Positions 51,681-62,767 of a stretch of 64,000 nucleotides of DNA are shown in pieces. Under the pieces are notes generated by a model. That model did not search any database. It was not told the DNA's origin and worked only from the letters and a program-made list of their open reading frames with translations. The DNA is taken from positions 1,426,001 to 1,490,000 of the forward strand of contig NZ_CP012034.1 in NCBI RefSeq assembly GCF_001050475.1. The letters are read 5' to 3'. Numbering within the stretch: position 1 is the stretch's first letter; every line of letters begins with the position of its first letter. This DNA comes from Companilactobacillus ginsenosidimutans (GTDB lineage Bacteria > Bacillota > Bacilli > Lactobacillales > Lactobacillaceae). The position numbers and the translations under genes were made by a program.

Positions 51681-52961
51681 TTATGCTTCTGAAGCACCTG
51701 AGTTAGCATCAACATCTGGTGTTGGTGCTGCGGGTGCGACTGTTGTGTCGGCATCTTCTGATGCTCCAGCATTTGCATCTACATCGGCTTTGGCAGAATC
51801 TGAGCCTTCTGATGCTCCGGCTGTTGCGTCTACTTTGGCATTTGGATCTGCGACTAATTTCTTACCTGTTTGTTTGAGGTATTGTTCGATGATTGGCCAC
51901 ATGTCGAGTACCCATTCGTTTACTCCACGATATCTGCCATTTTCATCACGCATTGCTTTGTAATAGTGCATTACGTGTCTTGTATCGTTGTTACCAGGTA
52001 CTGGCATTGAAATCAAGTCACTCTTACCTTCACGTAAGGCATGGATAACTTGTTTTACGTGTTTGATTGCGCGTGGTGGGTGAACGTCTGTCATACGGTC
52101 ACCGACTTGATCTGGTGTTCTTGATGCTAACATATCTTTTCCATCCATTGTCTTGTTGTAATAGATGAATTGGTTGTTGTCATCAACGTATGTTAATTCC
52201 ATTGGCATAGTGTTCAAGAAATAGTTGATTTGGTCAACTGTCAAAAGTCCACGATCCAATTTAACGTAAGCTTTGCCGTCAACGGCATTTGTCTTAACTG
52301 CAGCTTGTTCAACCCAATCTTTAGCATTCATTTCAACGTTTGTAACGGTTGTGTCAACCGGATTCTTGGCATCCAAATCTTCTTGTTCATATGAGTCGTC
52401 ACTTTGTTTACCAATCATATTAATAACTTTTACAAATTTGATAAATTTAGCTAATGTACCGCCGATAAAGTCGATTGTACCTTGACTCTTCAAGTTTCCG
52501 TTATCATCAAATGCACCTTTAACATTGCCAAGTAAAACTTCATTTCCTGGCAAGCAAATTGCGTTAACACCTGGTGATTCAAGAATTTGTCTTAAGTGTA
52601 ATTGAGCACGTGATGAACCTTGTGTGTAGTATGATGCACCAACGATTAAGACTGGTTTGCCATCTAATGGATGAATGCTGTAAGAAAGCCATTCGATAAG
52701 ATTCTTCATGGCAGCAGTTACAGTGTGATTGTGCTCTGGTTCAGCAAGAATAACACCATCAGCTGCTTGAATTTTTTTAGCGATGTATTGAATTGCATCA
52801 CCTTGTGATACATCCTCATCTTGATTGAACATTGGAATGTCATTGATGTCCAAAATCTCGATATCCACTTGGCTGTTGAAATGTGATGCCATAAATTTCA
52901 ACAACATACGGTTATATGATTGGTCTGCGATTGAGCCTGCGATACCAACTAATTTCATCAT
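51681..52961 (-). CDS. NADPH-dependent FMN reductase with PAS-like domain and GAS-motif tail
   Basis: 426 residues, about twice the family norm. Residues 1-190 are an NADPH_FMN_red flavodoxin fold ([35 protein letters not shown]). Residues 235-365 resemble a DUF438/PAS-type domain ([19 protein letters not shown]...[16 protein letters not shown]). The last 50 residues are disordered and repeat DA(T/N)(A/S)GASE three times at 378, 395 and 418. That motif resembles the ApbE target D-x-x-(S/T)-G-A-(S/T). It follows a tail-less paralogue by 12 bp. Confidence 0.8.
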
Positions 52962-52973
52962 AGTAACTCCCCC

Positions 52974-53585
52974 TTATTTATTGTCTTCCCAGTTAAAGTC
53001 TGCAGCATCTTGTTTGTTTGCTTCAGTTGAGCTGTTTAATTGAGCTGAAATGTCGACGAAATTCAAAAAATCTTGGAATAATCCGTCTAGTTGAACAACT
53101 TGTTCTTGATCCTTCAAGTTGCCATTTTCATCAAATGCATCTAGTGAGTGTCCAAGTAGGAATTCTGAACTAGGCATAATTCTAGCTTTGATTTCAGGTG
53201 AATCTAAAATTTGACGAAGTTGAGCTTGAGCACGTGATGATCCTAGTGATCCGTATGATGCACCGGTAATCATAACTGGCTTGTCGACAAATGGGTGTTG
53301 TCCATATGACAACCAAGCTAGTGCGCTAGTCAAAACAGCGGGAATTGAGTGGTCATATTCTGGAGTTCCGATAATAACACCGTCCGCTGCTTCAATTTTC
53401 TTAGCAACTTCTTTTGCGTATTCCGGAACAGTCTTTTCAGGACTCTTCTTATATATTGGTAGACCCTTGATTTCGACTAATTCAATATCAGCCTCATTTT
53501 CAAAATGTTTTTGGATAAATTGTAATAATTGACGATTTGTTGATTTTTTTGAGTTGGAACCAACTATGGCGATAAACTTTTTCAT
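52974..53585 (-). CDS. NADPH-dependent FMN reductase
   Basis: I choose the second ATG (53585, MKKFIAIVGSNSKKS) because AAAGGA abuts the first one; this gives 203 residues. FMN loop GSNSKKSTN, then GTPEYDHSIPAVLTSALAWLSY, match the azoreductase/FMN reductase family. It is paralogous to the N-terminal domain of the next gene and co-transcribed with it. It ends in an acidic tail without the GAS repeats. Confidence 0.88.
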   Translation of the reverse strand: MKKFIAIVGSNSKKSTNRQLLQFIQKHFENEADIELVEIKGLPIYKKSPEKTVPEYAKEVAKKIEAADGVIIGTPEYDHSIPAVLTSALAWLSYGQHPFVDKPVMITGASYGSLGSSRAQAQLRQILDSPEIKARIMPSSEFLLGHSLDAFDENGNLKDQEQVVQLDGLFQDFLNFVDISAQLNSSTEANKQDAADFNWEDNK

Positions 53586-53869
53586 TAAGCTATCCATCCT
53601 TTCAATACAAACTAAATATTCCTATATTATATATTTTAATTATATTCTTGTGATAAAGCAATCAAAGTTTGTAAAACGTTTGCACTTTTTTCTTAATTGC
53701 ATATCAACTCAATAATAACACTATCTTATCAGTGTTTTCTCAGTTGTAAATAGAAAGTTCAAATATGCCTGATAGACGTTAGTTTGTGATAATCAGTTCA
53801 AATGAGAAAGTTTTATCAATCATTAATTGTTTTTATGAGATCATAATTATTGCTTATTTATATTGCAGC

Positions 53870-53908: not shown

Positions 53909-54856
53909 TTATCCTAATACATCCGATTCTTTAACGAATTCATTTGTTGAAACTCTATAGTAAGTTGTTCCGTCAATAGTGATATATCTGTCAGTTGCCC
54001 AACCAGAACCGGGAGCTACCCCACGGTTCATGACTTTGGTACCTTGATATGTGTAAAGTGGCGCAACACTGTTCTTGATAACAATAGTTCCCATTTGACC
54101 ATTGTTCATTAATGAAAGGTAATGATATCCGTACTGTGAATCAGTACCTTTATCATATAAGTTTTCTGCATTGCCAGTTGAATTTGTGTTTGATCCATCA
54201 ACTACATCGTAATGATCTTGAGAAACTCCAGCAATTCCAGGATTATTATATTGCTTTGTCCAAACGCTCCATGCTGAGTCCCCACCTTGAGCATCAAATG
54301 TTGCTTGAGTTCCACCAAATACACAGACGTGGAAAATAGTTCCTTGATCATCATAAGCTGCAGCGAAAGCAGCGTGATCCTCAAATCTACTCAGCATAGT
54401 CTTTCTGTGACCAAAGGTAGGATTGCCATTATCAATATAATAATCTTTGATAATTTGTTGCCCCTTTTGATTGATATCCATGTTGTCCATGCTTGTACCT
54501 GCACCATGAAATCCAATAATCTCAGTTCTCGTGAAATAATTATATCTATCAGGATATACGTCTGGATTCAACCCCGCGTGATAATCTAGATAATGCATGG
54601 ATAGTAAAGTGTTCAATCTATTATTAGCGATTGTCTGCAAATCACCATCCCAAGAAAGTGCTGATAAACCATTTTGAGTTCTCAAACGGTTCATCTCATT
54701 GAAAGCAGCAGCACCAATTGCAGAATCAGTATTGGCATCCGCCTTAACCTCTGAAGTTTGAACCCCTGATAACTCGCTTAATACAGGACTGCTCACAACA
54801 GTCGTGATCCCCAGACCTAGTAGTGCTGTAACTAATAACGGCTTAGCTAGTTTCAT
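53909..54856 (-). CDS. secreted CAP-domain protein with SLAP-like C-terminal domain
   Basis: 315 residues. A signal peptide (residues 1-37, cut near VKADA) is followed by a CAP/SCP domain: FNEMNRLRTQNGLSALSWDGDL near 50-72, the His/Glu residues of YHAG and TRTEIIGFHG, and GHRKTMLS near 155. The C-terminal 50 residues (VAPLYTYQGTKVMNRGVAPGSGWATDR) are a SLAP-like wall-binding domain. It is probably non-covalently bound to the cell wall. The role of bacterial CAP proteins is unclear. Confidence 0.85.
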   Translation of the reverse strand: MKLAKPLLVTALLGLGITTVVSSPVLSELSGVQTSEVKADANTDSAIGAAAFNEMNRLRTQNGLSALSWDGDLQTIANNRLNTLLSMHYLDYHAGLNPDVYPDRYNYFTRTEIIGFHGAGTSMDNMDINQKGQQIIKDYYIDNGNPTFGHRKTMLSRFEDHAAFAAAYDDQGTIFHVCVFGGTQATFDAQGGDSAWSVWTKQYNNPGIAGVSQDHYDVVDGSNTNSTGNAENLYDKGTDSQYGYHYLSLMNNGQMGTIVIKNSVAPLYTYQGTKVMNRGVAPGSGWATDRYITIDGTTYYRVSTNEFVKESDVLG

Positions 54857-55007
54857 AGTAAATCCCCCTGTAATAAATATATTTATAGTTTAAGTATAGT
54901 TGACGTCACATTTATGTACAATTTATTTTTTATTAATTGATTTAACACGCGTGTCAGACATTAATTTTCCAATATATTATGATTTTGTATTCGAAACGGA
55001 AAATTAA

Positions 55008-55044
55008 TGAAAACGGTTAAATAATGCCTTTTCTTTGTTATACT
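55008..55044 (+). promoter_or_regulatory. GH84 gene promoter with cre-like operator
   Basis: TGAAAACGGTTAAA (55008-55021) matches the catabolite-responsive element consensus at 13 of 14 positions and overlaps a TTAAAT -35; TATACT follows at 55039-55044. It suggests CcpA repression of the glycosidase. Confidence 0.55.
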
Positions 55045-55074
55045 TCAGTCGAATAGTATAGGGGGAAAAACGAC

Positions 55075-57942
55075 ATGACAAATAACAATCATTTTAAAGC
55101 TTCATTGATTGGATTGACCGCCGCCGGAGTGCTGGTGTCACTGGGGTTGGCACAAAACTCTGAGACTAATGTGCAGGCAAGTTCTGATCCTGCGGTATCT
55201 GGAGAAACAAGCGACGTTCAGACTGACAAGTCTAATGTTACAAATACTTCAGATTCATATGCTAAGAATACGGTGCTTGATTCTGCTTCAGATACCGTCG
55301 TTGCTAAACAACAGCCTGAATCCAACGATGTGTCAACTCAATCTGATACTAGTTCTGACATTGTTGCAACCAAATCTGATATCACTCCTACCACAACAGA
55401 TAAAACTGCAGTTCAAACTCAGCAACCAAGTACAACGACCAAGCAAGCTCCAATGATAGCTGCTGTTGATGATTCCAACCTAGCAACGATTGCTGACGCA
55501 AAATCGGCTCTTGCCCAAAACGATATCCATTTTGACAATGTGACCTTCAACTTGTCCGTTCATGACAATGCTAATTTGAAGGAAAATGGCTACGTTATTC
55601 AAAGTGGTGTGACTGATGGTGTTTCGAATCTACTAGTTCAAGGCAAGGACAATACTGGCCTTTCTTATGGACTCAACGACTTGATTGCTCGTGTGAACAA
55701 GCATGAGTCGGTCGCAAATCTCAATGTTGTGCAAAATCCACAAATGTCGATTCGCGGTGTGATTGAAGGATTTTACGGTCAACCTTGGTCACAACAAGCT
55801 AGAACTGATATGTTCAAATTTATGAATGAACATAAAATGAATGTTTATATTTATTCTCCAAAAGACGATACTTACCTGCGTGAAAACTGGAAAGAGGAAT
55901 ACCCTGCTGACAAGCTAGCTCAAATTAAAAAGCTTGCGGATGCTGCTAACGCTAATCACGTCACGTTCGTTTACACGCTGTCTCCTGGGAATGATATTAC
56001 TTATTCAAGTGAAGAGGACTTTGAGACCACAACTAAGAAACTTGATCAGTTGCGTTCCATTGGTGTCACACAATTCTACATTGCACTCGACGACATTCCT
56101 CTAACTGTAACTGATGTAGATTCAGCCAAGTTCCCCGTCCGTGATACGAAGAATTACAAGAATAATGTTTGGTCACAGTTGGCTGATGCACAAGCTTATT
56201 ACGTTAACAAAGTTCAAACTGACTACATTGAGAAGAACAATTTGCCTGACCTCTGGCTAGTTCCAACCAACTATGCTGGATCCGCTCAAGATCCATTCAA
56301 AGAAGCTCAAGGTGAGAAACTCAACAAGAACATCCGCATGCAATGGACCGGTGAAGGCGTATTCTCCGGCTCAATCAATTCAGATTCCATCGACAAAGCC
56401 AAAACAACTTACAATACCGACCACCTATTCATCTGGGACAACTTCCCCGTTAACGACTCCGATCAAGACCGGCTTTATTTGAATCCAGTTGAAGGTAGAA
56501 ACGACAATCTCTATCAAGTAACCGACGGATTCACCAGCAATCCCATGATTCAGCCATACGCATCATGGATTGGCGTTGCCAGTTATGGTGACTACATGTG
56601 GAACGCCGCAACCTATAAGCCCGCCCAATCACTTCAAACAGTCGTCGAAGAGTTGGCTGGCGACAATCCCGCAACACTCGCATCCCTCAACGCATTCGTC
56701 GACCTCAACCAGTATTGGAATTATGCCGACAAGGCTGACCAAGTCCACGCACCAGTGTTGAGCAAACTAATTGCCGCCTACCAAAACGATCCGGATAGCG
56801 ATGCCAAAACGGCGTTGCTGACCCAGCTAAACACCATTTCAGACACACCTTCAACTTTGGAAAGTATGAAAGTGTCTGGCTTCTATGACGACGCTCTACC
56901 ATGGATAAACGCTGCTTCTCATTGGGCTAAGGCCTTAATCGCTGCAGTCACACTCAATCAACAGATAAGTTCTTCTGACACGCCTGCAGCTCTATCTCAA
57001 ACCCTATCCACAGTAAATTCTGAAGTCGCACAAGCAAAGAAAAAGACTCTGCCAGATAACCGAACCGGAGACCCTGAACTCATCACAACCCCAACAGTCG
57101 GTGATGGCGTGTTTGAACAATTTATTAGTGACACGTACAACAAACTAAACAGTTACCTAGGATTAAAGTCAGTGACACCTGAGCTAACTCCTATTGCTAC
57201 AACAATTTCTACCAACGTATCGCACTATTTGGATCACTCTGCTGACAAAGCTAACGACGGTGACACTGACACGTTCTTCTGGAGTGACCGCGATTTGAAG
57301 GCTGGAGACACGTTTACGATTAAGCTGGCAAAATACTCATCTGTCAGTCGTTTGGTGCTTCAACAAAGCACTGGTGACGACGTTATGTCGGACGGAAATC
57401 TCACTGGAGCAACTGTTTACGCTGGCAAATTCATCAATGGTGCTGATAAATTTGCTATTGGGACGTTATCCGGAAACGGATTATACCAGCTCGATTTGAA
57501 GACTCCCGTCGACGCAAACTTTCTATTTATAAAGGCAAACGACAATAGAACTGGTTGGTTCAGAATTCGTGAATTGGCGGTCTATGGCGGCACTGGTTTG
57601 ACACTAGACAACATCGACAACTCAAACGGAACTACTGCTGCATTGTTCGACAACAAGGTAGAAACGAGCTTCACCGGAAAATTGGACGATGCTTCACAAC
57701 CTGGGACTATTCAACAAGTTTCAGCGACACCAATTAATGGCGTGAAGTCAGCAGTCGTAGTCGGTAACGCTAGCGGAACTGTCTATGTTTCGGAAAAAGA
57801 TAATTGGGTGAAAGTTGGCAAGATTGACGGCACTCAATTGATTAACGTTTTACCTGTTAAAACCAACTCGATCGATGGTATAAAATTTGTTATCGACCCT
57901 ACTTCTAAGAAATTATCTATTAGTGAAATTGGATTAAATTAA
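55075..57942 (+). CDS. secreted GH84 beta-N-acetylglucosaminidase with CBM32-like domain
   Basis: 955 residues. A signal peptide ends near VQASS (residue 36), followed by a Thr/Ser/Gln-rich spacer to about 125. A GH20-like N-domain leads to the GH84 barrel: MSIRGVIEGFYGQPWS near 225-240 and the catalytic pair in FYIALDDIPL near 340. C-terminal residues 700-840 resemble an F5/8 type C (CBM32) module. Such enzymes remove GlcNAc from glycans or hyaluronan-like chains. No LPxTG anchor, so it is probably released. Confidence 0.9.
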   Translation: MTNNNHFKASLIGLTAAGVLVSLGLAQNSETNVQASSDPAVSGETSDVQTDKSNVTNTSDSYAKNTVLDSASDTVVAKQQPESNDVSTQSDTSSDIVATKSDITPTTTDKTAVQTQQPSTTTKQAPMIAAVDDSNLATIADAKSALAQNDIHFDNVTFNLSVHDNANLKENGYVIQSGVTDGVSNLLVQGKDNTGLSYGLNDLIARVNKHESVANLNVVQNPQMSIRGVIEGFYGQPWSQQARTDMFKFMNEHKMNVYIYSPKDDTYLRENWKEEYPADKLAQIKKLADAANANHVTFVYTLSPGNDITYSSEEDFETTTKKLDQLRSIGVTQFYIALDDIPLTVTDVDSAKFPVRDTKNYKNNVWSQLADAQAYYVNKVQTDYIEKNNLPDLWLVPTNYAGSAQDPFKEAQGEKLNKNIRMQWTGEGVFSGSINSDSIDKAKTTYNTDHLFIWDNFPVNDSDQDRLYLNPVEGRNDNLYQVTDGFTSNPMIQPYASWIGVASYGDYMWNAATYKPAQSLQTVVEELAGDNPATLASLNAFVDLNQYWNYADKADQVHAPVLSKLIAAYQNDPDSDAKTALLTQLNTISDTPSTLESMKVSGFYDDALPWINAASHWAKALIAAVTLNQQISSSDTPAALSQTLSTVNSEVAQAKKKTLPDNRTGDPELITTPTVGDGVFEQFISDTYNKLNSYLGLKSVTPELTPIATTISTNVSHYLDHSADKANDGDTDTFFWSDRDLKAGDTFTIKLAKYSSVSRLVLQQSTGDDVMSDGNLTGATVYAGKFINGADKFAIGTLSGNGLYQLDLKTPVDANFLFIKANDNRTGWFRIRELAVYGGTGLTLDNIDNSNGTTAALFDNKVETSFTGKLDDASQPGTIQQVSATPINGVKSAVVVGNASGTVYVSEKDNWVKVGKIDGTQLINVLPVKTNSIDGIKFVIDPTSKKLSISEIGLN

Positions 57943-57955
57943 ATTGCGTAATATA

Positions 57956-57987
57956 TAGAGAGTCCTGAATGATTCAGGGCTCTTTTG
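57956..57987 (+). terminator. terminator of the GH84 gene
   Basis: GAGAGTCCTGAAT and ATTCAGGGCTC pair, followed by TTTTGGTTTT, 14 bp after the stop. Confidence 0.7.
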
Positions 57988-58052
57988 GTTTTAATAACTG
58001 TTACACTATAGTTAATTTCGACACATTTTGTATCAAATTTGGAGGTAATGAC

Positions 58053-59372
58053 ATGTTCACTTCGTTAACGATGAAAAATTATAAATCATTTGATAACATT
58101 ACCATCAACTTTGAAGCCAAAAAGAATCACCCAAAAAAATTGATGGCAATCTTTGGGGAAAACGGTTCTGGGAAGTCTACTATTCTTTCAGCATTCAGCA
58201 AACTCCGTCTTTCAATAAACACAATTTCAAACATAGAAAAATTAAACAACTTATCACCTTCTAAAATTGCTGAAACCAAGACTGAATGGATCAGCCAAAT
58301 ATCTACTATGGATTTGAATTCAAATTTTACGAACGTTAATAACATTTTCAAAGATTCTATAATGGTTGCATCCACTGGTCCTATGGTTATCAATTTTGAG
58401 TTCATTTTGAACGGTCATAAGGGTAATTACGAATTGGTTTTCCAGAATGGAGATAATAACCAACCGTATCTTGTATCTGAGACTTTGAATTTTCTAATAA
58501 ATAAAGTATCTGGAACACTATTTTCAATCAAATACGATTCCAACAACAACATTTCAATTATTCAAAGTCCAAAACTGGTACAAAAATCTGCAATACTAAA
58601 GATTAACGATTACATAAATGAATATTGGGGAGATCATACGTTCCTTTCTATTATTAATCAGTTTGCTAGTGAGAATTTTACTTCAAAGAACCTATTTGCA
58701 GTTTTGAATTTTTTCAAGTCGATGGGTTTAAAAACAGATGAAACCAATATCGTGAATAATACAGTTAATCTTTTAACCAGTGAAAATTCTATAGATAACC
58801 AGTCATTAATAAAAACCACCGAATTGGCATTAAACAAATATTTAATACCTCTTTTGGACGACATTTCCGGAGTTAGATATAAAACAGTCATCAATCTTCA
58901 TAACGAAATTGAGTATGAACTTTGGGAAAAAAAACGTATCTATGGAAAGTATGTTGAGATCAAGTTTTCTTTCGAATCAAACGGTATCAAAAATATATTG
59001 AAACTATTTCCACACATTCTCAATGCAATCGGCGGAAATGTTGAACTCATTGACGATATTGATCATGGGCTCCACACAATGATAACCAAACAAATCGTCG
59101 AAAATATTGAAGAAAATATTGATGGACAGTTAATTTTCACAACCTCAGATACACATCTGATGACGCAATTAAAGAAAAAATATATCTATATTATTTGGGT
59201 GGATTCGGTCGGAAATAAAGCTGTGTATAGTCTAGATACTGTGCAATTTAAAGTTAGAAAGAATAATAATATTGAAAAGATTTATATTGATGGTGGCCTC
59301 AATGGAATACCTTTTTCCAGTGATGTAAATTTTTATGATATCGTCGAAGGGTTGAAAAATTCCAATGAATAA
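58053..59372 (+). CDS. AAA ATPase, RloA/AbiLi-like
   Basis: I choose the ATG at 58053 (MFTSLTMKNYKSFDN) after GGAGGT, giving 439 residues. Walker A is IFGENGSGKSTI near 34-45. A signature-like SNGIKNILKLF near 310, Walker B VELIDDIDHGLH near 338 and a TSDTHLM switch near 370 follow. The layout matches the AAA15/21 group used in OLD, RloA and AbiL systems, where the ATPase works with a Toprim or RloB-type partner. The next gene overlaps by 8 bp. Confidence 0.78.
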   Translation: MFTSLTMKNYKSFDNITINFEAKKNHPKKLMAIFGENGSGKSTILSAFSKLRLSINTISNIEKLNNLSPSKIAETKTEWISQISTMDLNSNFTNVNNIFKDSIMVASTGPMVINFEFILNGHKGNYELVFQNGDNNQPYLVSETLNFLINKVSGTLFSIKYDSNNNISIIQSPKLVQKSAILKINDYINEYWGDHTFLSIINQFASENFTSKNLFAVLNFFKSMGLKTDETNIVNNTVNLLTSENSIDNQSLIKTTELALNKYLIPLLDDISGVRYKTVINLHNEIEYELWEKKRIYGKYVEIKFSFESNGIKNILKLFPHILNAIGGNVELIDDIDHGLHTMITKQIVENIEENIDGQLIFTTSDTHLMTQLKKKYIYIIWVDSVGNKAVYSLDTVQFKVRKNNNIEKIYIDGGLNGIPFSSDVNFYDIVEGLKNSNE

Positions 59373-59766: not shown

Positions 59767-59799
59767 AAAAGGAGCTCTGAAAATTCAGAGCTCCTTTTA
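59765..59799 (+). terminator. bidirectional terminator
   Basis: AAAAGGAGCTCTGAA and TTCAGAGCTCCTTTT form a perfect stem between the convergent ATPase-partner and apbE genes. Confidence 0.88.
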
Positions 59800-60726
59800 A
59801 ATTATCGTAAATGAATCTTTCAACCCACTGGTGCTAAACACTTCCAGATCTCTAGTAATGAAAATGGCTTCAATTCCAGGCTGTTCTTCAATCATGGCCA
59901 TACCCTTTTCAATACCTTGATAAAAACCAAGCGTTGACCAAATTTCACCATCAACTGACTTATCACTGATGATAGTTACACTGGCAAGATTGTTTGCGAT
60001 GGGATAGCCAGTTTTCGAATCAAACATGTGATGATATTCATGACCATCTATCACTAGCTTACGCTCGTAAATACCTGACGTACCAATGGATTTTTCGGTT
60101 GTATGCAGTATACCGACAGGGACATTCCTTTTCTCCACTGGATTTTGAATTCCAATTTTCCACATAGAATCTGGTCTGAGACTTCTGCCTACTAATAGAA
60201 CGTTTCCACCAAGGTCGACGATACCTGATTCAACACCAGACTTAAGCCACATCTCTTTGATTCTATCCGCAATCCAGCCTTTCGCGATACCACCGAGGTC
60301 AATTTCCATGCCAGGTTGTTTCAAGAACACTGAATGTTCCTCATCATTGAGTTCAATTTGAGCTGGGTCAATTTCAGTAAGCTTAGTCTTAATATCTGAA
60401 TCTAATGGCTTGTTGGCACCCTTGAAACCAATTTTCCAAAGCTTAACCAATGGTCCGATGGCAACGTTGAATCCAAGATGCAATTGACTGGTCTCGACAG
60501 CTAATTTGATTAATCCATATGTGTCCTCTGGAACGGAAACCGCCTTAATTCCGGCATTATGGTTAATCGACATAACTTCTGACTCAGGACGATTGACTGT
60601 CAGTTTATCCTCGTAATCCTGAATCAACTTGTAAGCAGCATCTAAGTCTGCAGTCGTAGCAGGTTCAGCAACGGACAAATTGATCAATGTACCTAATGCG
60701 TAATACTTCTTATTTATCATTCCCAT
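59797..60726 (-). CDS. apbE: FAD:protein FMN transferase ApbE, cytosolic
   Basis: 309 residues. ApbE motifs: EDKLTVNRPESEVMSIN near 40, GFNVAIGPLVKLW near 85, IDLGGIAKGWIAD near 140-152, SIGTSGIYER near 213 and MFDSKTGYPI near 235 (metal ligand Asp). It attaches FMN from FAD to Ser/Thr in target motifs. There is no signal peptide or lipobox, so it acts in the cytosol. It is divergent from the fumarate-reductase-like gene, its probable target. Confidence 0.93.
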   Translation of the reverse strand: MGMINKKYYALGTLINLSVAEPATTADLDAAYKLIQDYEDKLTVNRPESEVMSINHNAGIKAVSVPEDTYGLIKLAVETSQLHLGFNVAIGPLVKLWKIGFKGANKPLDSDIKTKLTEIDPAQIELNDEEHSVFLKQPGMEIDLGGIAKGWIADRIKEMWLKSGVESGIVDLGGNVLLVGRSLRPDSMWKIGIQNPVEKRNVPVGILHTTEKSIGTSGIYERKLVIDGHEYHHMFDSKTGYPIANNLASVTIISDKSVDGEIWSTLGFYQGIEKGMAMIEEQPGIEAIFITRDLEVFSTSGLKDSFTII

Positions 60727-60889
60727 TATTATTTCTTCCCATATTTGTGTATGACATCTGTATATAACCTATCATAGAAATTTTACTACAGCACTGGTCA
60801 ATTTTGCCAAAATCTTCACATGATTATCACACAGCAATAATAATAAGCGTTATATTAATCTATAATGGTATTTTTAAGGAGTGAATAAA

Positions 60890-62767
60890 ATGTTTAAAAG
60901 TGTAAATTCAAACTGGGACGCAACTTATGATGTAATCGTCCTTGGTTTCGGTGGTGCCGGTGCTACTGCTGCCCGCTTCGCAGCTGATAACGGTGCTAAA
61001 GTCTTGATTGTCGACTCAGCTCCCGAGGGTCATGAAGGTGGAAATACTCGATATGCCGGACAAGTTATTTCAACTGGCCACGACCTTGACGATTTGAGAA
61101 ATTATTATGATGATTTGGCACATCCATTGTCATATGATCACGAACTTATGGAAACATACGTTGAAGGATTGTACGACATGCCTAATTTTGTCAAAAAGTA
61201 TCTCGGTGTTGAAAAGCCATTCGTAATGGATGAACACCCAGACTCACCGGTTTCAAAAGCCTTGTTCTTCATGCGCCACGAATATCCAGAACTACGTGGT
61301 CAAAAGACACACGATTTGGTTGCCTTACACGAAGGCGTCGCCGATTCAGCTCTCTGGAAAAATCTTCGTCAACAAGTACTCGACCGTTCCGATAAAATCG
61401 ATGTCTTGTACGAAACTCCAGCTGAATACTTGTATCAAGATCCATACATCAACGCCGTTGTTGGTGTTGAAATTAAACGTAATGGTGAATCACTTAAAGT
61501 CAAGGCTAACAACGGTGTAGTCATGGCAACTGGTGGTTTCGAAAACAATCCTAAGATGATTGAAAACTATCTTGGTGAAACTAGCCTCAATCCTATCGGA
61601 TCCCTTTACAATAAAGGTATCGGCGTCAAAATGGCCGAAGATGTAGGAGCCCAGCTATACAATATGGCTAATTACGAGTCATACGGAATATTCCATGGGT
61701 TGACACCTAAACCCGAAGCCGGTCAGCGTTCACAATTTCTCCCATTCGATTGGCCTGCATTCCACCAAGGCAGCTTGATGGTTGTCGGCGACGACGGGAC
61801 ACGTTACTTCAATGAGGATGAGATGCATCGCCACGGTCACATCAAAAATCACGGTGAATGGCGTATTCCAAACGCGCAAATCCACCCTTATGTCATTTTC
61901 GACCAGAAGAAGTACGTCGAACTCAAGAGTGACAAGAACGCACCTTATCCAGAATTCTTGAAGCTGGTTATTGAGGCCGATGACATCAAAGAACTCGCCA
62001 AGGTGCTCGGAGTCAACGCCAAAACCTTGAAAGGCACAATCAAGGACTTCAATCGCTTCGCCAAAAAGGGACGTGACTATGCTTATAACCGTGACGGTGA
62101 CACCTTAACAGCCTTTGATGATGAGGGTCCATACTATGCAATCGCCATGGTCCAAGGGTTGTTGAACACACAGGGTGGCCCTGTTCACAATGCTAAAACT
62201 GAAGTCGTCGACCCAGATGGCAACGTAATCCCTCACCTATATGCAGTCGGTGAACTTGGTAGTTTGATGGGACGTAAGTACAACGGTGGTAGCAACCTTG
62301 CCGAGAACCTTATCTTCGGTAAAATTGCCGGTGAACAAGCGGCTAAGATTAAGGCTCAAGTTGAAGTGCCTAACACAAATGGTGCTGGATCAACTGACGC
62401 AACTGCTGGTGCTAGTGAAAACGCAGCTCCCGTCAACAACGGAACTGCCGGATTAGGATCTGATGCTGTCGAAGAATCTTTTGAGACTGGTCCAAATCAA
62501 TTTATCGGTAAATCAACTGCCGGTATGGGTAACGAAGTCGTTGTCCGTGTTACAGTTGATGATGACAATAACATCAAGGATGTTGAAGTTTTGAAGCAAA
62601 GTGAGTCTGAAGATTATGGACTCAAGGCTATCAAGGAACTTCCTAAAGAAATCGTTGCTAAAAATTCTGTTGATGTTGACTCAATTTCTGGCGCATCAGC
62701 TTCAAGTAACGCAATCAAAGAAGCCGTAACAAATGCACTAAAACTTGCAAAAAAAGTTACTGAATAA
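60890..62767 (+). CDS. FAD-dependent fumarate/urocanate reductase-like flavoprotein with FMN-binding domain
   Basis: I choose the ATG at 60890 after TAAGGAG, giving 625 residues. Residues 12-490 are an FAD_binding_2 domain (DVIVLGFGGAGATAARFAADNG; EGGNTRYAGQ; ATGGFENN; GSLMGRKYNGGSNLAENL). A linker at 495-525 holds DATAGASE at 503-510. Residues 525-625 are an FMN_bind domain with DSISGASAS at 597, Ser603 being the likely flavinylation site. No signal peptide, so it is a soluble cytosolic NAD(P)H-linked reductase of a double-bond acceptor, probably modified by the adjacent ApbE. Confidence 0.88.
   Translation: MFKSVNSNWDATYDVIVLGFGGAGATAARFAADNGAKVLIVDSAPEGHEGGNTRYAGQVISTGHDLDDLRNYYDDLAHPLSYDHELMETYVEGLYDMPNFVKKYLGVEKPFVMDEHPDSPVSKALFFMRHEYPELRGQKTHDLVALHEGVADSALWKNLRQQVLDRSDKIDVLYETPAEYLYQDPYINAVVGVEIKRNGESLKVKANNGVVMATGGFENNPKMIENYLGETSLNPIGSLYNKGIGVKMAEDVGAQLYNMANYESYGIFHGLTPKPEAGQRSQFLPFDWPAFHQGSLMVVGDDGTRYFNEDEMHRHGHIKNHGEWRIPNAQIHPYVIFDQKKYVELKSDKNAPYPEFLKLVIEADDIKELAKVLGVNAKTLKGTIKDFNRFAKKGRDYAYNRDGDTLTAFDDEGPYYAIAMVQGLLNTQGGPVHNAKTEVVDPDGNVIPHLYAVGELGSLMGRKYNGGSNLAENLIFGKIAGEQAAKIKAQVEVPNTNGAGSTDATAGASENAAPVNNGTAGLGSDAVEESFETGPNQFIGKSTAGMGNEVVVRVTVDDDNNIKDVEVLKQSESEDYGLKAIKELPKEIVAKNSVDVDSISGASASSNAIKEAVTNALKLAKKVTE

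Follow-up and report, generated by a model that had tools for sequence, protein, structure and literature searches.

Described flavin reductases and flavinylated tails

The closest described proteins are FMN_red proteins, mostly from Firmicutes, whose unstructured C-terminal extension carries one to two ApbE motifs and whose genes are co-located with apbE (Huang et al. 2024, PMC11334425). According to the available parts of that paper, the FMN_red proteins of L. lactis and L. taiwanensis are flavinylated when co-expressed with their cognate ApbE in E. coli, and the predicted Ser/Thr is required. The L. lactis extension is modelled near the conserved flavin site, and the authors propose that the tail fixes the flavin in the pocket. 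The target motif of ApbE is D-x-x-[ST]-G-A-[ST], with Thr preferred over Ser; a glycine-to-alanine change kept about 50% of flavinylation in one substrate, and a stretch of seven residues is enough for ApbE in the Flavin-tag of Tong et al. (2021), which works best when placed at a terminus (all as given in accessible sections of the review PMC12052999).

A second relevant system is FRedA/FRedB of L. johnsonii, an NADH:FMN reductase heterodimer studied together with the PAS_10 protein LjPAS (Valladares et al. 2015, PMC4500961). As described in the available text, FRedA/B reduces FMN and FAD, not riboflavin, and its affinity for FMN is limited, the Kd being near 2 uM. Absence of oxygen represses the LjPAS gene. 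The LjPAS protein, after purification from E. coli, slowed the assembly of FRedA/B and had no effect in a two-hybrid assay. According to the same paper, other lactic acid bacteria have PAS and FMN_red in a single fused protein. Its authors propose LjPAS as a redox/oxygen sensor; flavin sites are not considered in the available text, and the word 'ApbE' occurs zero times in the main text.

The protein analysed here resembles both systems as far as these sources describe them. Like the proteins of Huang et al., it has an FMN_red domain, an unstructured extension, at least one strict motif and a co-located apbE; like FRedA/B-LjPAS, its locus has two consecutive FMN_red genes and a PAS_10 domain, and the PAS-FMN_red fusion is its own architecture. 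An earlier note on this DNA, made from the sequence alone, had stated that no tail of this kind was described, which the flavinylated FMN_red extensions in the available text of Huang et al. 2024 (PMC11334425) contradict. Flavinylated tails were known before; the weight of the present analysis rests on the multi-site array with PAS_10 and on its spread to pyruvate oxidase. No paper that links flavinylation to PAS_10 or to pyruvate oxidase was recognised in the literature searched, which largely stopped short of subscription papers (one Brucella flavoproteome paper contains all three words).

Architecture of the window protein

The window, the whole 64,000-nucleotide stretch of the Companilactobacillus ginsenosidimutans genome analysed here, contains the following features.

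51681..52961, minus strand: FMN_red + PAS_10 + tail protein, a FRedB-PAS-like subunit of 426 residues (Pfam: FMN_red E 4.4e-37, PAS_10 E 1.2e-28)
52524..52958, minus strand: its FMN_red domain (PF03358), residues 2-146 (Pfam)
51900..52229, minus strand: its PAS_10 domain, residues 245-354 (Pfam; best Foldseek match 2qkp, the C-terminal domain of SMU_1151c)
51684..51839, minus strand: C-terminal tail predicted to be disordered, residues 375-426
51810..51830, minus strand: site 1, DATAGAS, candidate Ser384 (codon 51812-51810; from sequence)
51759..51779, minus strand: site 2, DANAGAS, candidate Ser401 (codon 51761-51759; from sequence)
51690..51710, minus strand: site 3, DANSGAS, candidate Ser424 (codon 51692-51690; from sequence), the sole strict D-x-x-[ST]-G-A-[ST] match
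52974..53597, minus strand: partner FMN_red protein of 207 residues without a motif (Pfam; the pair recurs in relatives)
53909..59372, strand not specified: three genes separating apbE from the FMN_red pair, encoding a CAP-domain protein (weak SlpA match), a GH84-type beta-N-acetylglucosaminidase and an AAA protein
59797..60726, minus strand: ApbE flavin transferase of 309 residues, signal peptide not apparent (profile match)
60881..62767, plus strand: fumarate-reductase-like (Frd-like) protein, FAD_binding_2 + linker + FMN_bind (Pfam)
62396..62416, plus strand: linker site DATAGAS of the Frd-like protein (from sequence)
62678..62698, plus strand: FMN_bind site DSISGAS of the Frd-like protein (from sequence)

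All three tail motifs fall within the final 49 residues of the 51681-52961(-) ORF (16 protein letters, not shown, and then DANSGASEA at the end), outside both the FMN_red and the PAS_10 domain. The protein has no Pfam match to FMN_bind (PF04205), and a PHROGs search returned no result. Structural modeling with AlphaFold2 (single chain, alignment of 50 homologues, pTM 0.47) gives block means of 63-95 for residues 1-370 and a pLDDT below 50 for residues 375-425 of the 425-residue entry; the C-terminal tail is thus predicted to be disordered, in agreement with the earlier note.

That note had also described three GAS-type repeats at the C-terminus, the last at the very end of the protein, and these are well beyond chance: in 200,000 shuffles of the final 60 residues, three D...GA[ST] motifs never arose and two arose in 47. 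When DxxxGASE was searched as a DNA pattern with TCN serine codons, all three matches in the organism's own 2.59 Mb genome lay in this tail, and the reversed pattern had no match there; the Frd-like linker copy escapes the TCN-serine pattern. Codon choice differs among the three tail copies. The proposed fit to D-x-x-[ST]-G-A-[ST] holds for site 3 and fails at position 4 of sites 1 and 2, where Ala is found; the organism also has Ala at this position in one of its FMN_bind domains (DVVAGAS, L004). The label 'flavin reductase' omits the second domain, PAS_10, with which the array is often found even where FMN_red is missing.

Conservation of the motif array

Among the nearest homologues of the window protein (best 120 of 1306, the window protein included), all 120 carry 2-6 D...[GS]A[ST] motifs past residue 350, and 118 retain a site when only glycine is allowed at position 5. 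The nearest homologues of an L. lactis plasmid protein (best 120 of 1444) likewise have 1-3 such motifs in 120/120 cases. Motifs are present at 40/40 loci outside Lactobacillaceae (1-4 each) and at 80/80 named loci (1-3 each).

From 100 Lactobacillaceae stretches, 98 PAS_10 proteins yielded 97 distinct tails of at least 15 residues, which hold 300 motifs against a shuffle mean of 4.7 and a maximum of 12 (300 rounds). The bodies of the same PAS_10 proteins contain one motif in 29,908 residues, and 817 other ORFs of at least 150 residues contain 20 in 260,035. Four PAS_10 tails are motif-free, three of them on small PAS_10 proteins and the fourth out of frame. Of the 300 motifs, 237 have G and 63 have S at position 5; at position 4, T occurs in 142, S in 128, A in 27 and another residue in 3. 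The spacers vary in both length and sequence, with a median start-to-start distance of 18 residues. One homologue of 712 residues (P0061) contains an additional PAS-like stretch, and further motif-rich stretches separate its repeated parts, a layout that suggests duplication of the PAS-tail unit.

Ten of the 97 distinct tails carry only SAS-type copies and no G-type copy (the PAS_10 tails of L072, L075, L085, L089, L092, L094, L095, L096, L120 and L128). Among the matches listed, and with relatedness uncorrected, an FMN_bind match is absent in 6/10 of these genomes versus 11/74 other tail genomes (p 0.004). SAS-only tails may reflect a relaxed or changed ApbE specificity, or decay.

Genomic neighborhood and co-occurrence with ApbE

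The organism's genome has a single ApbE match (59797-60726(-)), the divergent gene beside the Frd-like gene (the earlier note had already called ApbE its neighbor), and gene order in relatives supports the tie of the tail to ApbE and to the Frd-like protein. Five congeneric genomes (L041, L042, L043, L045, L049) have a divergent Frd-like gene with FMN_bind ahead of apbE, the same order as in the window. In the window, apbE lies ~7 kb from the 51681-52961(-) gene, and in most relatives examined the two are adjacent. Since the three intervening genes of the window are not at that place in the five genus relatives, the separation described as '10 kb away' reflects a split cluster. The linker repeat in the Frd-like protein to which that distance referred is present ~10.6 kb from the tail; it is of the G type in the window copy only, and 5/5 genus relatives compared have D...SAS there.

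The row apbE, FMN_red (about 205 residues, no motif), FMN_red-PAS-tail on one strand occurs at 59/80 named loci, and the remaining 21/80 have FMN_red followed by FMN_red-PAS-tail, with ApbE not on the stretch examined. ApbE is found on the same stretch at 32/40 loci outside Lactobacillaceae and for 62/112 FMN_red+PAS proteins when all stretches are combined. In L. fermentum the pair is divergent beside flavocytochrome c and fumarase. On the L. lactis plasmid pGdh442 the order is a Crp/Fnr-type regulator, a small ORF, apbE, FMN_red and FMN_red-PAS-tail, the tail having two DATSGAS copies; the regulator gene (L163:4043-4714, plus strand), being ahead of the row, hints at oxygen control. The only Lactococcus returned by the named-genome scan was Lactococcus hircilactis, whose FMN_red-PAS-tail protein has two sites.

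Of the 251 Lactobacillaceae genomes scored for co-occurrence, 84 have a listed homologue that covers PAS_10; in 65 of them it also includes FMN_red, and in 19 it does not. ApbE is strongly matched alongside the tail homologue in 84/84 genomes versus 49/167 others (Fisher 6e-32, relatedness uncorrected; among the matches listed), with the 19 weak ApbE matches (E above 1e-20) scored as ApbE-less, none of them in a tail genome. The genome sets for the ApbE, FMN_bind, flavocytochrome c and clustered-pattern counts were compiled by hand from match tables, and two irregular cases are counted within the 84: G124, where the stand-alone PAS_10 protein (L102) has an out-of-frame tail and 0 sites, and G235, in which the gene is split. 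At least 15 of the 49 ApbE-bearing 'others' have tails of diverged type (G003, G102, G229, G241, G169, G225, G175, G179, G216, G130, G104, G077, G045, G090, G116), so the contrast of 84/84 with 49/167 is conservative. An FMN_bind match is absent in 17/84 tail genomes (among the matches listed), which leaves the tail as the only recognised ApbE target there. Outside the family, ApbE is present in 107/107 genomes in which a match covers both domains (among the matches listed); this adds little, because 262/295 genomes of the order have ApbE anyway. A simple pattern match found a lipobox-like start in 0/72 ApbE ORFs on the fetched stretches, and the ApbE tied to the tail array is cytosolic-looking.

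A second test started from the motif rather than the protein. The DxxxGASE pattern occurs in 63/151 family genomes, with two or more copies within 300 bases in 23, and ApbE is present in 23/23 of the latter versus 78/151 overall (among the matches listed). The earlier note had named a motif widespread in tails of unrelated proteins lacking ApbE as evidence against its reading; across these 151 genomes, the 15 with a pattern and without a strong ApbE match hold scattered single matches only.

Other carriers of the array

The array is not tied to a single protein type. Stand-alone PAS_10 proteins of about 220-271 residues have 2-4 sites, with the exception of L102 (L102:5334-6017, minus strand), whose tail, compared with that of its close relatives, is out of frame and has no in-frame motif. 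Four of them (L125-L128) are encoded next to apbE, as is the small diverged L109. Small diverged PAS_10 proteins have 2-5 sites in L109-L112, L115 and L289 and no site in L113, L114 and L117. L285-L287 have FMN_red joined to the small PAS type; these proteins carry 3-4 sites, and apbE follows immediately downstream. Assignment of the tail to the FMN_red domain was abandoned, given that stand-alone PAS_10 proteins carry arrays (several beside apbE) and the partner FMN_red has none. Conversely, FMN_red occurs without PAS_10 and with 3-4 sites in L290 and L291, so the tie of the tail to PAS_10 is frequent, not exclusive. A view of the array as confined to PAS_10 proteins was dropped when the pattern search of the 151 genomes revealed pyruvate oxidases.

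L290:2655-3554 and L291:2142-3086, both minus strand: FMN_red proteins without PAS_10, 299-314 residues, 3-4 motifs in a long extension, overlapping apbE (from sequence)
L047:2052-3947, plus strand: SpxB-type pyruvate oxidase with 1-2 ApbE-type motifs at the extreme C-terminus
L288:2778-4667, minus strand: the same type
L293:2043-3851, minus strand: the same type
L294:1861-3666, minus strand: the same type
L295:2116-3924, minus strand: the same type, by similarity of ending only

Among the best 120 of 2529 relatives of one Lactobacillus enzyme, 95 pyruvate oxidases have 1-2 C-terminal sites and 25 are siteless, the latter including L. plantarum-type enzymes and some short records. The three enzymes tested scored above the TIGR02720 cut-off. 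The L047 pyruvate oxidase ends in DVVSGASQHV, and its gene lies just ahead of apbE, FMN_red and FMN_red-PAS-tail, all four on one strand. On a pyruvate oxidase tree of 66 of 124 sequences (rows below 565 residues, identical bodies and rows over 97% identical to a retained sequence were left out), presence or absence of the tail requires 5 changes, and branches with good support force at least 4 of these. Such C-terminal motifs were found in two of 1,921 other ORFs of at least 80 residues on 142 stretches, one being the L047 pyruvate oxidase. A tailed pyruvate oxidase was not found in the organism's own genome, where the best match is 35% identical and has a siteless end. The literature searched reports no search for covalent flavin in Lactobacillus pyruvate oxidase. 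The presence of the array also on stand-alone PAS_10, on FMN_red alone and on pyruvate oxidases, as judged from sequence, is joined here and not in the literature searched.

Proposed function and alternative explanations

It is very likely, judging from conservation and gene content, that at least one tail site is flavinylated in vivo. The suggestion of flavinylation sites outside a folded FMN_bind domain is favored by these data: the repeats are most probably ApbE sites, as indicated by homologue conservation, ApbE co-occurrence and the lack of a PF04205 match; the decoy or docking role raised at the same time found no positive support. For the window protein, the reading that we consider probable is a three-site ApbE array on the FRedB-PAS subunit of a cytosolic NADH:flavin reductase heterodimer, with tethered FMN serving as electron carriers. 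By analogy with FRedA/B, the partner (52974-53597) and the FMN_red domain of 51681-52961 would form the NADH-oxidising heterodimer. The three tail sites would carry, or be able to carry, phosphoester-linked FMN attached by ApbE, and the heterodimer would reduce these tethered flavins as its physiological acceptors, in place of the free FMN supplied in assays. FRedA/B takes FMN and FAD but not riboflavin, and so accepts phosphate-bearing flavins, as tethered FMN is. The flavins would swing on the flexible tail and could pass electrons to separate flavoenzymes, e.g., Frd-like proteins, or to O2, giving H2O2; electrons may also be exchanged with pyruvate oxidase. We rate the relay role of the tail flavins itself at about an even chance. 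Weighing against the carrier reading are the Ala at position 4 of sites 1 and 2, the ten SAS-only tails, and LjPAS, given its slowing of heterodimer assembly and its lack of a two-hybrid effect. A flavocytochrome c homologue is present in 66/84 tail genomes and 73/167 others, and an FAD2 gene without FMN_red in 10/100 family stretches, 0/40 outside the family and 0/80 named loci. By these counts a tight tie of the tail to FAD-only fumarate reductase is only partial, and Frd-like acceptors are kept here as conditional partners.

The proposal of Huang et al. would make the tail flavin the reductase's own FMN, folded into the FMN_red pocket against dissociation. It draws on the L. lactis model described above and would suit the Kd of only about 2 uM given for FRedA/B in the available text of PMC4500961, yet one pocket faces two to seven sites on most chains, and arrays also sit on stand-alone PAS_10 proteins and pyruvate oxidases that lack FMN_red, while the partner FMN_red has none. 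Retention is possible for one site; since most chains have two to seven sites and tails occur on proteins without an FMN_red pocket, it is insufficient alone, and as a full account of the tail we regard it as unlikely. Alternatively, the tethered FMN could be the ligand of PAS_10, making the protein a redox/oxygen sensor that tunes the reductase, as proposed for LjPAS by Valladares et al. The array does accompany PAS_10 where FMN_red is absent, the expression and assembly effects of LjPAS in PMC4500961 fit such a role, and a Crp/Fnr-type gene precedes the L. lactis row. However, the number of sites varies widely, the sites are on an unfolded tail, and PAS-less carriers exist (FMN_red alone, pyruvate oxidase), which makes a dedicated sensor ligand improbable.

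The repeats could also belong to an unflavinylated, low-complexity acidic tail rich in Ala and Ser that resembles ApbE sites by chance or serves solubility or docking. Its composition is indeed biased, two of the three window sites are non-strict, and some species have SAS-type repeats alone. Against this, equal composition predicts 4.7 motifs where 300 are found, motifs are present in 240/240 listed homologues (best 120 of 1306 plus best 120 of 1444), ApbE accompanies the array in every one of the 84 tail genomes and 23 clustered-pattern genomes of the family (among the matches listed), and FMN_red extensions are flavinylated in the published work (PMC11334425, as available). We consider this explanation very improbable. 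Given that arrays of 2-7 sites occur also on chains without an FMN_red domain, that cofactor retention is insufficient, and that the FAD reductase is separate here and on one chain in HcrB-type ORFs, tethered carrier flavins are favored.

A broader and more tentative reading is that the tail is a portable, foldless, multi-site covalent-flavin arm on several cytosolic redox proteins (FMN reductases, PAS_10 proteins, pyruvate oxidases and the Frd-like linker), served by a cytosolic ApbE and allowing a shared exchange of electrons among NADH, pyruvate, fumarate-type acceptors and O2. If so, it would be an arm for electrons that parallels the swinging lipoyl arms for acyl groups, the FRedA/B-like 'FMN reductases' would be carrier-flavin reductases, and LjPAS would be less a sensor than a flavin carrier. 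Should the tail flavins carry electrons, the question of the in-cell substrate of lactic acid bacterial 'flavin reductases' would be answered directly, and a single modifying enzyme could be linked to the H2O2 that lactobacilli form through FRedA/B and pyruvate oxidase.

Comparison with known systems

The window protein departs from each described system in a different respect. Huang et al. report one to two motifs in the available text, whereas three are present here and up to seven in relatives; a PAS domain is unmentioned there for their proteins, and PAS_10 is present in the window protein. The Flavin-tag, as summarized in the accessible part of the review, is an engineered label, while the window tail is a natural, conserved array. 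For FRedA/B-LjPAS, the nearest counterparts in this data set are stand-alone PAS_10 proteins of LjPAS size in genus g37 (L099-L101, L134-L138), which have two to three terminal sites (L102, a further copy, has lost them to its out-of-frame tail); these are size-matched proteins, not LjPAS itself.

The hydroxycinnamate reductase HcrA/HcrB is a coupled pair of a small FMN_red partner and a larger chain (review PMC10295242, available text). The same genomes encode ORFs of about 800 residues that combine FMN_red, FMN_bind and FAD_binding_2 in a single chain (among the matches listed); these presumably correspond to HcrB. There, as far as the source describes it, a folded FMN_bind domain would hold the covalent flavin and the FAD reductase is fused, whereas the window system has a foldless tail and a separate reductase; the unfolded tail may fill the role that FMN_bind has in HcrB-type fusions. 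Multi-flavinylated FMN_bind proteins carry several covalent flavins per chain, with up to 13 predicted sites (PMC8238504; PMC10339131, in the parts available). Every site in those proteins is described as lying in a folded FMN_bind domain, usually extracytosolic, while the window tail places its candidate sites in no domain at all.
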